From contig NZ_JAUSNF010000051.1 of NCBI RefSeq assembly GCF_030646255.1, positions 1-36,131 of the forward strand: DNA of 36,131 nt. The letters are read 5' to 3'. Shown in pieces: positions 28,397 through 36,131 of this stretch. The position numbers and the translations under genes were made by a program. Each line of letters starts with the position of its first letter. Within the stretch, counting starts at the first letter, position 1. The DNA comes from Candidatus Burarchaeum sp. GTDB lineage: Archaea > Micrarchaeota > Micrarchaeia > Burarchaeales > Burarchaeaceae. The notes beneath the pieces are model-generated. The model saw nothing but the letters and a program-made list of their open reading frames with translations, had not been told where the DNA came from and did no database searches.

Positions 28397-29089
28397 TCAA
28401 TAGACGTGCTCGTTTGGGTAGAGCTCTATGCCAGTGGGCGCAAATCGCATGAGGAACAGCCGCTCAGCATAGCTCGTGCCGCGCATCTTTATGACCTCGA
28501 GCGCGCGCAGGCGCTGCTCGCCCTTGCGTATAGTGTAGAGGTAGATTACGCCGTCGGCGAGCGGCTCGACATCGAACTGGGGGAAGGGCGTGCCGAAAGA
28601 GTCCACGCGGCAGTCCGAGGTCAGCATCACCGTGCAGCCCCACTTCTTGAGCTTTGCCAGCAGCTTCATTACCTCCTGCCGCTTCCTCATCTCATTCTCA
28701 TAGAGTACTGCAAAGGAGGTGACGGTGTCCAGCACGACGCGCCGTATCTTGAGCTCCTCTATCTTGTCGTGAATCATGAGCTCCTGCGCAAGGAAGTGGT
28801 CGACCTCGTGCGGCGGATATTCGAGGAACATGAACTTCTTCTGCTTTTCAAAGTCCGCGAACTTCCAGCCATAGGCAGACATGTAATCGTACACGCGCGG
28901 CTTTTCCTCCTCGAAGGAAATGTAGAGCCCGTTCTCATTTGCATTCGCAAGGCCGTGGTGGAGGAACTGCATTGCAAATGTCGACTTGCCTGCGCCCGTG
29001 CCGCCGCTGATTGCGATTATGCTGCCAGAAGGATAGCCGCCACCGAGCAGCTCGTCAAGGCCGGCCAGGCCAGTGCTTACGCGTTCCAT
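28397..29089 (-). CDS. KaiC/RadA-like ATPase
   Basis: VSTGLAGLDELLGGGYPSGSIIAISGGTGAGKSTFAMQFLHHGL intact Walker A; RRVVLDTVTS Walker B. Confidence 0.9.
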   Translation of the reverse strand: MERVSTGLAGLDELLGGGYPSGSIIAISGGTGAGKSTFAMQFLHHGLANANENGLYISFEEEKPRVYDYMSAYGWKFADFEKQKKFMFLEYPPHEVDHFLAQELMIHDKIEELKIRRVVLDTVTSFAVLYENEMRKRQEVMKLLAKLKKWGCTVMLTSDCRVDSFGTPFPQFDVEPLADGVIYLYTIRKGEQRLRALEVIKMRGTSYAERLFLMRFAPTGIELYPNEHVY

Positions 29090-29140
29090 GCATTGATTAC
29101 CTCACAAACATTTTAAACTTCAGATACGAATGTGCAGACT
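29090..29140. promoter_or_regulatory. Divergent promoter with single central box (TTTTAAA)
   Basis: Box 29111-29117; 25 nt to ATG 29089 (minus) and 27 nt to ATG 29141 (plus). Confidence 0.65.
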
Positions 29141-30910
29141 ATGCGCCCGACAGCCTTAATAATATTAGCGCTTGCGCTCCTTTCGGAGGCAGGCATGGCC
29201 TATGCTGAATGCCCGAGCGGAAGCGCGAGCATCATGGTGCCGGCAGTGGCGGGCGAAGAGGGGAAAATTCTTATGCTGTCTGTAGAATCAATGCCGGGCC
29301 ATGGCGAAGTATTCATGTCAACCGCGCCATATGTCGGCCTGCAGACGCAGAATTCCGAAAGGATTGCGGTCTCGGTCGCAGCATGGATACTGGAACAGAA
29401 TGCGAGTGAGTGCGACTTCCTTTTCAGGATTGGCGGGGACGTGGACGAAACTGAGGCAGTGGATGGCCCGAGCGCGGGCGCGGCTATGACGCTCGTGGTG
29501 CTTTCTGCGCTCAGCAACACATCCATATCGAATACTGTGAGCATGACAGGAACTATAGAACTTGATGGCTCCATAGGGCCTGTGGGGGGCGTGAGCGCGA
29601 AGGCAAGGGCCGCCGCGAAGGAAGGCGCGAATATTTTCCTCACGCCGAAGCTGGAAATGTATGAGCGGCTTTTGCTCAGCGGTGTGCACAAGAACTACGA
29701 CATAAGGGTCATTGAAGTCCAGGACATTTTCGAGGCTGCGGCAATAGTGCTTGGGGGGGAGGTTCCGCTGGAAAAGAATAGGACATATAGGGGCACCGAG
29801 CTCCCAGAGGACCTGGACATATATGCGATTTTGATTACGCCACAGGTTGCGCGGTTCGCAAAAATAGCGAATGATACGTTGGATGATACTGTTGCAGAAG
29901 TGGCGCAGGCCAAGCTCAGGGGGAATGGGGAGTTTGATGCCTATTTCGAAGGCGAGATGAACGCCACGCGCACATTGCTGGACAAAAAATACCACTATAC
30001 TGGAGCCAATATTGCATTCCTGGCTGGCGTTGATGCGCGCATCGTGGGCAGGCCGATAACAGAAGCTGAACTGAAGGCAAGCATCAGTGACGTTGAGGCG
30101 TGCCTTGCTGGGCTGAGGAAGCCGGCGCTATACCAAGACAATGCCGAGGAGGTTTTCGGTGGAGAAGTCAGGATGACCTGGGCGCGACAGAAGCTTGATG
30201 ACGTCCTCAATATGAGTGGCGAGGGCGAAGATATGATGGTTTACAAGCTCAGGGAGCTCGACTATGCGAAAGGCTGGTGCACGCTCGCAGGAAGGCTATA
30301 TGACTATGGGGGCGCCGGAGAGAAGTTGAACGAGCAAAGCTTGCGGTTGCTTGCAAAAGAGAAGCTGGAAGCGGCGAGGCAAGTGGTTTTGAGTGAGGAC
30401 AGCGATGTCGGATGGCATCTGATGGCTGCGGAAGAGGCATATGACGCAGGAAACTACGGCGCAGCAGTTTATGATTCGGCATATTCAATTGGAATGACTA
30501 TGGCTTCGGAAGAGCTCATTAACCAGACGCCAGAAAGCCTGAAAAAACGCGTTGGGGGGTTTGTGGCAAAAGAGGTTGGCGGCCTTTGGCCGAACCTCTA
30601 CAAAATGCAAGTGCAATACTATTCCAAGGAAGGCAGCACGGATTTGGCGACTGCGTTCAGGATGGCGCAGTTCGTTAAAGAACTTGAGAAGAACAATGAT
30701 GAGGCCATGAAGATTTTGATTGCTGCGAAAGTAGGTGAGATGCCCGAGCCGCAGGCGACTATGCCGGTGGTGCCGGTGCAGGAAAATGGGCAGCTCGAAG
30801 TCAGTGCGAGTGCGCGGGATGCGTTTGCGCTGCTCGCGATTCTGGGGCTTCTTCTGGTAATCGCCTATGAAGTGGGTGAGATAAGAGGGGAAAAACATGC
30901 ATCCATCTAA
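29141..30910 (+). CDS. Secreted/membrane-anchored Lon-like (S16) protease lacking an AAA+ domain
   Basis: Signal peptide MRPTALIILALALLSEAGMAYA; DGPSAGAAMTLVVLSAL catalytic Ser region, GSIGPVGGVSAKARAAAKEG catalytic Lys region; C-terminal TM ALLAILGLLLVIAYEV. Confidence 0.9.
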   Translation: MRPTALIILALALLSEAGMAYAECPSGSASIMVPAVAGEEGKILMLSVESMPGHGEVFMSTAPYVGLQTQNSERIAVSVAAWILEQNASECDFLFRIGGDVDETEAVDGPSAGAAMTLVVLSALSNTSISNTVSMTGTIELDGSIGPVGGVSAKARAAAKEGANIFLTPKLEMYERLLLSGVHKNYDIRVIEVQDIFEAAAIVLGGEVPLEKNRTYRGTELPEDLDIYAILITPQVARFAKIANDTLDDTVAEVAQAKLRGNGEFDAYFEGEMNATRTLLDKKYHYTGANIAFLAGVDARIVGRPITEAELKASISDVEACLAGLRKPALYQDNAEEVFGGEVRMTWARQKLDDVLNMSGEGEDMMVYKLRELDYAKGWCTLAGRLYDYGGAGEKLNEQSLRLLAKEKLEAARQVVLSEDSDVGWHLMAAEEAYDAGNYGAAVYDSAYSIGMTMASEELINQTPESLKKRVGGFVAKEVGGLWPNLYKMQVQYYSKEGSTDLATAFRMAQFVKELEKNNDEAMKILIAAKVGEMPEPQATMPVVPVQENGQLEVSASARDAFALLAILGLLLVIAYEVGEIRGEKHASI

Positions 30911-33010: not shown

Positions 33011-33712
33011 ATGCGGGCTTTTGTGAGCGCGCTGCTAGTAGCCGCACTGCTTCTTCCATTGCTAGCCTTCATCTCATCGCAGGCAGAGCTGAAGGCAGAT
33101 GAGGGTGCGATGCTGTCCCGCGCATTTGCAGCCGGGGCCAGCAGGAATGCTGGCGAGACGGGTTTGCTTGCAGTGAAGGAGATCATTAGACAAACCACTA
33201 CTGAACGGATGCCGCGCGATGCGAGGAGCGTGAAGGAGAGTGAAGTGGAGGCGGCGAGAAGGCTGGCACTTTTTGAGGAATTTTCTGAGGCAGAATTTGG
33301 TGCTGAACGCTGGCAGGTCGACATGTGGTGCGGCAGGATTTCGTCTTCAGAGGCGCGCGAGCTTGCACGCGAGATGACGCACCAAGGGAAGGCACTGAAG
33401 TGTGTGCAGTGCTGGGATGCGGGAAAGAAAGTGGTTCTGGTGGGCAGAGGAAAAACAGTGGAGGTGAATGCATGCGCATTCGCAATACTCGTCGAGCCGG
33501 CGCTTGTGGGAAGCGGAAGGGCAGGTGTGGGCAACTCGGCTCTAAGCTTGCTGTATGATGAAGATGGAGGGGCGCTTGTGCCTGCTGATGCAGAAGTTGC
33601 AGAAGCGATTGCGGCGGGCGGATGGGCTATTGGGGTATCTGTGTATGACAAGAATACTGGGGCAGCCTCGGTGCGCTACGTTGCGCCGGGCGAGATGGAA
33701 AAATATGGATGA
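33011..33712 (+). CDS. Hypothetical membrane/exported protein upstream of pilin-like genes
   Basis: N-terminal hydrophobic segment FVSALLVAALLLPLLAFISSQ; co-oriented with pilin-like genes. Confidence 0.7.
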   Translation: MRAFVSALLVAALLLPLLAFISSQAELKADEGAMLSRAFAAGASRNAGETGLLAVKEIIRQTTTERMPRDARSVKESEVEAARRLALFEEFSEAEFGAERWQVDMWCGRISSSEARELAREMTHQGKALKCVQCWDAGKKVVLVGRGKTVEVNACAFAILVEPALVGSGRAGVGNSALSLLYDEDGGALVPADAEVAEAIAAGGWAIGVSVYDKNTGAASVRYVAPGEMEKYG

Positions 33713-33722
33713 GGATAATTAG

Positions 33723-34007
33723 ATGGAGCAGACTATGGCACTACGAGGACATCTAAGTAAGATGGCGAGAAGAACGCGGCACTTGCGGGGGCAGCTGAGC
33801 ATAGAGGCACTTGTTGCGATTGCCGCATTCCTTGCACTGCTGGCCGCGTTGATTGGGGCTGCCGCGGTTGCGGGCGATGCAACAGAAGATGCACAGGCAG
33901 CGATGACGGATGAAAGACTGAAGGCAGCTGCGGTGCTTGAGAATGAGGTTGTGGCAGGCGAAGGCATTGAGTTTGGAGATGAATATGCAAAAGAACTGAA
34001 AGGGTGA
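33723..34007 (+). CDS. Type IV pilin-like protein with class III signal sequence
   Basis: RGQLSIEALVAIAAFLALLAALIGAA, QxSxE class III-type motif followed by hydrophobic helix. Confidence 0.75.
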   Translation: MEQTMALRGHLSKMARRTRHLRGQLSIEALVAIAAFLALLAALIGAAAVAGDATEDAQAAMTDERLKAAAVLENEVVAGEGIEFGDEYAKELKG

Positions 34008-34011
34008 ACGT

Positions 34012-34392
34012 ATGCGTGGGGCGATAATGACGACAGATGCACTGATTGCTTCGCTAGTCATTATACTAATCATTGTTGCATGGGCGCAGGCGCATTCGCT
34101 CGTGGTGGGCGGGGCGGCCAATGAGGCAAGACTCGAGGCAAAAAAAATGAGGCTGGTCGCATATGCAGATGCCATTGTAAGGGATGCAAGGGAAGGAAAC
34201 CCGGCTCCCACATCAGCTGCTTTTAGGATGCGGGATGTGCAAGTGAGGTTGTGGAGTCTTGACGAAAATAAACCGGCAGGCACGGACATGCAGACGGAGA
34301 CGGGAAATGGAGAGGTGCCTGATGAACGCATTTGCATTAGACGGCTGATTCCGGCTGAGAGCGGGGCGAAGATTCTAGAGGTTTGTGCATGA
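34012..34392 (+). CDS. Pilin-like small membrane protein
   Basis: RGAIMTTDALIASLVIILIIVAW near N-terminus. Confidence 0.65.
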   Translation: MRGAIMTTDALIASLVIILIIVAWAQAHSLVVGGAANEARLEAKKMRLVAYADAIVRDAREGNPAPTSAAFRMRDVQVRLWSLDENKPAGTDMQTETGNGEVPDERICIRRLIPAESGAKILEVCA

Positions 34393-34465
34393 AGGAAAAG
34401 ATTGTTGCGGGGCAGGGTGGCGCATTCGGAGTTGCAGGGCGAGCGAAGAGGCCGGAGGTTTGCGC

Positions 34466-34870
34466 ATGAGGCTTGCACGGCTGCGGCATGCGAAAATGCG
34501 CGGCGCCATACTCACGCTCGAGGCGATGGCAGCCATGCTCGTACTGCTTGCCGCAATCATGCTGATGCTTGCGCATCCTTCCGCCAGCAGAAGCAGGGCA
34601 TCGCAGCTGGCGATGCAGATGCAGGCAGAGGATATTGTGGAATTTGTTGCCGGAGCAGGAGGTGCGGAAAAGGTTGGTGAGGCGAAGCTGATGGCGATTG
34701 CAGACGCACTGGATGCGTGCATACGGGTTTCGAAGAAGGGTGAGGAGACCTTCAGGTCGGCGTGTTTTGGTGAGGGCGGCTCTGGCGCAAAGGAGCGCGC
34801 AGCTGCAGGATATTTTGAAATCGACGGCACCGCATATTCTTTGGCTTTGCTCGAGCTCGAGAAAAGATGA
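34466..34870 (+). CDS. Pilin-like small membrane protein
   Basis: MRLARLRHAKMRGAILTLEAMAAMLVLLAAIMLML; start at 34466 within ORF 34385-34870. Confidence 0.65.
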   Translation: MRLARLRHAKMRGAILTLEAMAAMLVLLAAIMLMLAHPSASRSRASQLAMQMQAEDIVEFVAGAGGAEKVGEAKLMAIADALDACIRVSKKGEETFRSACFGEGGSGAKERAAAGYFEIDGTAYSLALLELEKR

Positions 34871-34876
34871 TTAACA

Positions 34877-34884
34877 TTTAAATA
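34877..34884 (+). promoter_or_regulatory. TATA box (TTTAAATA)
   Basis: Centre about 26 nt upstream of ATG 34907. Confidence 0.6.
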
Positions 34885-34906: not shown

Positions 34907-36082
34907 ATGGCAGTGGTTCCGACTGGAATTGGCAAACTGGATGAGCTTGTCGGCGGCGGGCTTGAGAAAGGCTCGAGCGCGCTAATCCACATGACGCCGG
35001 GCCTTGAAGGCGCCACGTTTGCCCAGCAGATCCTGCTTGAGGGACTGAAGAACGGGCTTGGCGGAATCTACGTAGTCAACAACAAGGCGCCGGCGAGCGT
35101 GCTGGACGCCACTTTGCAGCTGAACTGGAATGCGAAGCTTTTCGGAAAGGTCAAGTTCGTAGACTGCTTTTCATCGACTTTGGGCCAAGCATCAGACGAG
35201 AAGTATGTGACCAAAACGCCATGGGACCTGAAGGAACTGGACATGGTGATTGCAAAGGCAGTGAAGGAGAACAGGGAGGCCGTGCTCGTGTTCGACTCGC
35301 TTTCGACGCTGGTCGAGCGCAAGGGCGAAAAGGAAGTCATGGCGGCAATCAAAGGATGGAAGGACTCTGCAAAGAAGATGAATGTGACTGCACTTTACCT
35401 GTTTACAGACTGGAGCGAGAAGAGGGACGTTTTCAACCGCATCGCGGGCGCATTCGACTATGGAATAATGCTGAAGGCGGTTGAGGAGAAGATGCTCCTG
35501 CGGAATTATTTCTCAGTGGAGAAGGCGCCCACAAAGGTGCAGAAGGTTGCGGTGCCGTTCAAGATAGGGCCTGACGGGGTTGCAATCTACGTGCCGAAGA
35601 TTCTTGTCACCGGGCCGTTCCACGCAGGCAAGTCAAGCTTCATACATGCAATCAGCACGAGGGCGGTTTCCGTTGACCGCATGGGCACTACGATTGCACT
35701 CGACCACGGATATGTCGACAGGGGTGGAATGAGCATAGACCTGTTCGGAACGCCGGGGCAGGAAAGATTTACGTTCATGATCGACATCCTGAACAGGGAT
35801 GTGTTTGGCATCATACTTGTGGTCGACAGCATGAACCCGGAGATTGAGAGGGCGGTCGAGATGCTGAAGTATGTGGAAAGATATGGAATTCCGCTTGTGG
35901 TCGCGGCCAATAAGCAAGATGTGAAGGGCGCGATGAAGCCGCAGGACATGAAGAACGAGCTTGTAAAGAGAGGGATCGTAAAGGACATTAGCGTCGTGGG
36001 CACATCAGCAGCTACAAAAGAAGGCTGTATTGAACTAGTGAATGTGCTCATGGATGCAATAATAGGTGTGAAGCATGCCTGA
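34907..36082 (+). CDS. KaiC/RadA-like domain (degenerate Walker A) fused to Ras-superfamily, CvnD/MglA-like GTPase
   Basis: N-terminal TGIGKLDELVGGGLEKGSSALIHMTPGLEGATF and AVLVFDSLSTL; C-terminal G1 VTGPFHAGKSSF, switch I GTTIALDHG, G3 DLFGTPGQERF, G4 NKQD, G5 TSA. Confidence 0.9.
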   Translation: MAVVPTGIGKLDELVGGGLEKGSSALIHMTPGLEGATFAQQILLEGLKNGLGGIYVVNNKAPASVLDATLQLNWNAKLFGKVKFVDCFSSTLGQASDEKYVTKTPWDLKELDMVIAKAVKENREAVLVFDSLSTLVERKGEKEVMAAIKGWKDSAKKMNVTALYLFTDWSEKRDVFNRIAGAFDYGIMLKAVEEKMLLRNYFSVEKAPTKVQKVAVPFKIGPDGVAIYVPKILVTGPFHAGKSSFIHAISTRAVSVDRMGTTIALDHGYVDRGGMSIDLFGTPGQERFTFMIDILNRDVFGIILVVDSMNPEIERAVEMLKYVERYGIPLVVAANKQDVKGAMKPQDMKNELVKRGIVKDISVVGTSAATKEGCIELVNVLMDAIIGVKHA

Positions 36083-36131
36083 AGAAACCAAGACAAGGCT
36101 GGAAGACCTGCTGGGCGAGCTGAACCAGACA
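36075..36131 (+). CDS. 3'-truncated CDS; start resembles roadblock/LC7-domain proteins
   Basis: MPEETKTRLEDLLGELNQT..., overlaps preceding stop by 8 nt; family assignment is inference from 19 residues. Confidence 0.4.
   Translation, partial: MPEETKTRLEDLLGELNQT

Follow-up and report, generated by a model that had tools for sequence, protein, structure and literature searches.

What is the function of an archaeal protein that unites a KaiC-like ATPase domain and a small GTPase domain in one polypeptide, and which partners does it act with? This question is raised by a gene at the very end of a contig of Candidatus Burarchaeum sp. (NZ_JAUSNF010000051.1), which we analysed over its full 36,131 nucleotides (hereafter the window) together with a survey of 301 genomes of the same phylum. 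The features discussed below are listed in Table 1. From their arrangement, and from the relatives of the gene in other genomes, the fusion and its roadblock partner point to an archaeal signalling module that has so far not been described.

Table 1 Positions of the fusion gene, its domains and its neighbours in the window.
Feature	Position	Strand	Basis
233-aa membrane-anchored gene, leads a widespread prepilin cluster; link with the fusion uncertain	33011..33712	+	31/301 genomes
Prepilin-like gene (RGQLSIEALVAIAAF), upstream neighbour	33723..34007	+	sequence
Prepilin-like gene (RGAIMTTDALIASLVI), upstream neighbour	34012..34392	+	sequence
Prepilin-like gene (RGAILTLEAMAAMLVL), upstream neighbour	34385..34870	+	sequence
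TATA-like box TTTAAATA, 30 nt 5' of the fusion ATG	34877..34884	+	TTTAWATA match, kept in relatives
Fusion of an inactivated KaiC and an MglA-type GTPase, 391 aa	34907..36082	+	ORF, Pfam, relatives, motif alignment
KaiC (RecA-like) domain, predicted pseudo-ATPase	34916..35596	+	PF06745; motif table; alignment to 2dr3 and 2zts
Small GTPase domain with G1 GPFHAGKS, G2 MGTTIALDHG, G3 DLFGTPGQERF, G4 NKQD, G5 TSA	35597..36079	+	Pfam, motif alignment
Start of a roadblock/LC7 gene, truncated where the contig stops	36075..36131	+	MPEETKTRLEDLLGELNQT matches the start of the 123-aa protein of G086; f19 orthologues are Robl_LC7

A conserved fusion of a KaiC-like domain and a small GTPase

A first-pass annotation of the sequence had proposed that a KaiC-like domain is fused to a small GTPase in a protein of 391 amino acids, which the open reading frame and the Pfam matches confirm. 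Residues 4-230 match the KaiC family (PF06745; E 5.5e-23; score 82 bits, cut-off 26.6) and residues 231-384 match the Arf family (PF00025; E 1.2e-11), with Ras, SRPRB and MMR_HSR1 likewise exceeding the Pfam cut-off in the GTPase half. No linker separates the domains; the final strand of KaiC (GVAIYVP) continues directly as the first GTPase strand (KILVTG). An AlphaFold2 model of the protein, calculated with one relative, reached a mean pLDDT of 39.6, which is too low for a fold comparison.

The fusion is found in eight of the 301 genomes, which belong to three families: the window genome and G086 of the same genus (g1), G100 (family f18) and G103 to G107 (family f19). G086 is LFW-281_7, Candidatus Burarchaeum australiense (Burarchaeales, Micrarchaeota), and comes from Little Forest Legacy Site groundwater (PMC8561730). 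The sequence is conserved at 79% in G086 and at 45-50% in the other families. Between the window and G086, dN/dS (NG86) is about 0.10 overall, 0.13 for the KaiC half and 0.06 for the GTPase half, and from these low ratios between two members of the genus we conclude that both halves are under purifying selection. A chance fusion of reading frames is ruled out by this selection together with the conservation in eight genomes, and an assembly join is ruled out by the several independent genomes, in which the fusion is contiguous except for G100, where the gene is split across two contigs. A profile of the GTPase domain retrieved the eight fusions and, with an E-value of 8e-9, a single weak match within a 568-aa frame of G051, and no standalone copy of the domain among the 301 genomes; the phages and viral contigs that we searched gave no matches.

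The KaiC half is a predicted pseudo-ATPase

The first-pass annotation had noted a degenerate Walker A motif with a remaining Walker B, and the motif alignment agrees: Walker A of the window protein reads TPGLEGAT, compared with GTGAGKST in active KaiC paralogues, and Walker B (VLVFDS) is retained. The alignment further reveals a loss that had escaped notice, namely that of the catalytic glutamate pair (VNNKA vs SFEEE). Both losses extend to all eight fusions, in which Walker A is degenerate (TPGLEGAT, TPGIDGRA or similar) and invariably devoid of its lysine, the catalytic glutamate site has become VNN, IEN or similar, and Walker B is mostly retained. The intact KaiC proteins of the same and related genomes have GTGAGKST or DAGSGKTT as their Walker A, with FEE as the catalytic-glutamate motif, and both the GK[ST] of Walker A and the catalytic glutamate are present in the four aligned intact KaiC genes of the phylum. 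An alignment with two KaiC-like chains of solved structure, 2dr3 and 2zts, shows the same active-site losses.

Since these motifs are lost in the KaiC half and those of the GTPase half are retained (see below), with purifying selection acting on both, we infer that the former no longer binds ATP, being most likely a pseudo-ATPase that has been kept for its fold, and that the latter is likely active. In G106 (L038:5549-6559), the whole protein is reduced to 337 aa, the KaiC half being further shortened and having lost still more of the ATPase motifs, and the GTPase half being unchanged.

ArlH/FlaH is the KaiC-like ATPase of the archaellum, and the RecA-like fold of the KaiC superfamily is common to it and the fusion. 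Identity with ArlH is ruled out by motifs and score: active KaiC and ArlH ATPases carry the GK[ST] of Walker A and the catalytic glutamate, whereas none of the eight fusions has either; the KaiC half is nearer to the thermo_KaiC_1 model than to the FlaH/ArlH models, with 27.3 bits against the FlaH cut-off of 194 (PRK06067); and archaellum genes are absent from its neighbours. For archaea, KaiC-like signalling hubs and inactivated KaiC (iKaiC) domains are treated by Makarova et al. 2017, as cited in PMC5847659. According to the excerpt of PMC5847659 that deals with them, iKaiC domains resemble the case described here in being degenerate KaiC domains within signalling fusions of narrow phyletic range, but the fusions named in this excerpt are those with REC, PAS and HalOD1, and it mentions no small GTPase.

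The GTPase half resembles archaeal MglA-type GTPases

All five G motifs ascribed to the C-terminal half by the first-pass annotation are present. DLFGTPGQERF, with GTPGQ in G3, occurs in each of the eight fusions, and G1 (GPFH[AS]GK[ST]), G2 (GTT), G4 (NKQD) and G5 (TSA or TVA) are retained. G2 reads MGTTIALDHG or LGTTVALDHG, with a threonine in place of the Group 1 arginine, and G4 is ANKQD in seven fusions and, on the second contig of G100, also in the eighth.

The closest known GTPases are those of MglA Groups 2-5, including CvnD, MfpB and the archaeal Group 4, with their MglB/CvnB roadblock partners. These groups are characterized by GTPGQ in G3, a threonine in G2 for the Group 1 arginine and roadblock partners with a DG (Asp-Gly) pair, and [NT]KxD in G4 is typical of Groups 1, 4 and 5 (Wuichet and Sogaard-Andersen, PMC4316618). 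The fusion GTPase displays each of these sequence features, including a nearby DG-pair roadblock protein, and its bacterial kin lie beside roadblock genes, which upholds the earlier assignment to the CvnD/MglA type. It departs from these groups in two respects: the known members are single-domain proteins of at most 240 aa in the survey of PMC4316618, whereas the fusions measure 337-417 aa with an N-terminal, inactivated KaiC domain, and the linkage to histidine kinase and DUF742 genes known there is replaced here by a linkage to KaiC genes. An insertion between G1 and G2 is confined to the Thermus, Deinococcus and Streptomyces rows of the alignment and is missing from the fusions, as in the archaeal type, which together with NKxD in G4 points to an archaeal-type MglA. 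This finding places an MglA-type GTPase in a DPANN lineage with tiny genomes.

Thermus and Deinococcus provide the nearest plasmid-borne relatives in the form of ATP/GTP-binding proteins, and Streptomyces in the form of CvnD-like proteins. Roadblock genes adjoin these bacterial GTPases in all three records examined, and the Thermus and Deinococcus replicons concerned also yielded roadblock genes when the roadblock protein was the query. The Streptomyces relative sits in a conservon. The actinobacterial conservon (CvnA-D) shares a CvnD-like GTPase and a roadblock protein with our locus, but the fusion has no adjoining histidine kinase and no CvnC/DUF742, and identity with a conservon is ruled out by the absence of both kinase and DUF742 from the neighbourhoods examined.

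The overlapping gene encodes a roadblock protein

As the first-pass annotation had stated, the next gene overlaps the fusion by 8 nt, its ATG beginning at 36075 and the stop codon of the fusion occupying 36080-36082. The window contains only 57 nt (19 codons) of this gene, whose 19 residues align with the start of a 123-aa roadblock protein of G086. In that genome, too, the fusion contig ends within the next gene, a part of which matches Robl_LC7 (E 4e-8); contig C6 opens with an exact overlap of 33 nt, and joining the two contigs yields the whole protein (MPEETKVKLEDMLTELSQTGDIEASAIVRRDGLMIASD...). On single contigs of G103, G104 and G106, the next gene is a Robl_LC7 gene as well (Pfam E 9e-14, 4e-14 and 3e-14, respectively). 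The roadblock identity of this gene had been set beforehand as the test on which the earlier reading should stand or fall, and the reading stands on the joined G086 contigs and the three Pfam matches. We also sought the rest of the gene in the genome of the window itself, where no other contig carries it; the KaiC gene on contig C7 of this genome (G000:C7), considered as the syntenic KaiC, proved not to be so (43% identity). The roadblock proteins conserve a DG pair, as described for the MglB partners of Groups 2-5 (PMC4316618).

The roadblock gene is followed by an intact KaiC ATPase gene on C6 of G086 and by a degenerate KaiC gene (DUF7504) in G103 and G104, so that fusion, roadblock and KaiC-like genes are adjacent in three genomes. 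G106 has fusion and roadblock side by side. In G100, G105 and G107, DUF7504 comes directly after the fusion, and the roadblock gene is located at another place in the genome, beside an intact KaiC gene.

A proposed GTP switch within a KaiC/roadblock hub

The best explanation of these sequence data, to which we give an even chance of being correct, is that the fusion acts as the GTP-switch subunit within a signalling hub of KaiC and roadblock proteins. The inactivated KaiC half would not hydrolyse ATP and would instead serve as a docking and oligomerisation module for an intact KaiC, the ATP-driven partner. The GTPase, attached without a linker, would toggle between GTP and GDP states, and a roadblock dimer would bind it as an activator or adaptor, like MglB/CvnB, and bridge it to KaiC. 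A transmembrane roadblock protein, which is found in most of the same genomes, could bring the switch to the membrane, and type IV pili are one candidate output. The hub is favoured by the domain set and by the pattern of motif loss and retention in all eight members, and likewise by the gene adjacencies described above, the co-occurrence of fusion and roadblock genes and the frequent KaiC-superfamily neighbours of the latter (see below), the lack of standalone copies of the GTPase domain, the pairing of both proteins' relatives in bacteria and the DG pair of the roadblock proteins; the position of the roadblock gene away from the fusion in G100, G105 and G107 and the roadblock genes of genomes that lack the GTPase speak against it. 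No output gene is consistently linked to the fusion in the neighbourhoods compared. We propose only tentatively the further step that the GTPase subunit with its dead KaiC assembles with KaiC ATPases, and that the GTP switch and the KaiC ATP cycle are mechanically coupled through roadblock proteins, some of them membrane-anchored, in an undescribed kind of complex.

Each kind of component is known, including signalling fusions of iKaiC (named in the excerpt of PMC5847659), and it is the combination that would be new: we found no description of a KaiC/GTPase/roadblock combination in the literature searched, outside of which lies the 2017 KaiC-hub paper (Makarova et al.). As a KaiC-GTPase polypeptide, an overlapping roadblock gene and a KaiC ATPase gene are encoded next to each other, a KaiC/GTPase/roadblock complex is directly testable.

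Roadblock genes adjoin KaiC-like genes across the phylum

Roadblock domains occur in 15 of the 301 genomes, which include all eight with the fusion (hypergeometric 4e-12, uncorrected for shared ancestry). Counting the fusion, 14 of the 16 standalone roadblock genes adjoin a gene of the KaiC superfamily, with only 1-13 KaiC matches per roadblock-bearing genome. An MglA-type GTPase is missing from seven of the 15, and from this we conclude that the roadblock protein is not present solely for the GTPase. In six genomes without this GTPase (G098, G099, G101, G102, G080 and G081), the roadblock gene lies beside KaiC-like genes. This is what would be expected if roadblock proteins mainly regulated KaiC ATPases and the fused GTPase acted as a secondary input, either by recruiting the KaiC/roadblock pair or by competing with it, a reading that we consider rather unlikely. 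We know of no direct interaction between a roadblock protein and KaiC. Against this reading, roadblock proteins of this family are linked with the GTPase in bacteria (PMC4316618; the Thermus, Deinococcus and Streptomyces records).

Locus by locus, the standalone roadblock genes nearly always adjoin a KaiC-like or DUF7504 gene (L069, L070, L072, L073, L074, L075, L076, L077, L078, L079, L081). Most roadblock-bearing genomes also encode a long protein that ends in a roadblock domain. Long transmembrane proteins of this kind are found at L080:5032-6987 (G000:C2, in the window genome), L047, L053 and L071:2939-6739; judged by eye, the 652-aa frame of G000:C2 begins like a lipoprotein and contains hydrophobic transmembrane segments. 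These long proteins are candidate membrane receptors for the fusion GTPase. Within the window, an intact KaiC gene (28397-29089) is divergent from a gene with a Lon-type (S16) protease domain (29132-30910), an arrangement retained in G086, and genes with a similar Lon domain occur in the vicinity of the roadblock-KaiC pairs in G100, G101 and G102.

The upstream pilin cluster and the putative promoter of the fusion

The prepilin genes directly upstream had led the first-pass annotation to suggest that the fusion controls a surface filament. Across the phylum, this cluster is a conserved arrangement in which a membrane-protein gene precedes two or three genes for prepilin-like proteins; the four cluster genes of the window (33011-34870) are without Pfam matches. 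The fusion adjoins the cluster only in the window genome and G086, and in the latter an extra gene lies between pilins and fusion. G104, G105 and G107 own the cluster, but not near the fusion, and the f19 fusion flanks inspected carry ferredoxin, reductase and primase-like genes. The fusion is absent from 26 of the 31 cluster-bearing genomes, and the stretches examined at 17 other cluster loci contained no KaiC, roadblock or GTPase gene.

The fusion also appears to have a promoter of its own. The plus strand of the 36-kb window has just two TTTAWATA matches, one of them the box TTTAAATA, and G086 has the same box at the same distance although the flanks differ. At a like distance, TTTATTAAAT precedes the fusion in G103, G104 and G107, and G105 has a close variant of it. 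A TATA box 30 nt before the ATG suggests that the fusion is transcribed by itself, apart from the pilins, as a leaderless mRNA.

With the pilin linkage confined to genus g1, the f19 fusions elsewhere and a TATA box of its own, the claim of filament control is not supported as it had been put. We retain it as an alternative, because roadblock proteins (arCOG02603) and KaiC families have been reported in archaeal type IV pilus loci (PMC4858521). The GTPase state would then set the assembly or polarity of the pilins encoded upstream, comparable to the control of type IV pili by MglA in Myxococcus, in keeping with the stimulation of type IV pilus assembly by MglA-GTP (PMC9481161). A weak positive sign comes from G097 of another family (f5), where the same pilin cluster has a gene for a membrane-anchored roadblock protein next to it, and where the contig carries a standalone roadblock gene as well. 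Considering the many clusters without a fusion and the fusions distant from their clusters, the extra gene in G086 and the separate promoter, we regard a pilus or adhesion-filament regulator as unlikely.

In the PDB, the best sequence matches of the GTPase half are Arf proteins, as are most of the others, which we read as general G-domain similarity. A house-keeping role, for instance in translation or protein targeting as for SRP-receptor-beta and Arf GTPases, with the KaiC half as an inert scaffold, would suit these matches and the Arf and SRPRB matches in Pfam, but is highly improbable for a protein that occurs in only eight of 301 genomes, is tied to a roadblock protein and has GTPGQ, the signature of MglA Groups 2-5, rather than DxxGQ in G3.
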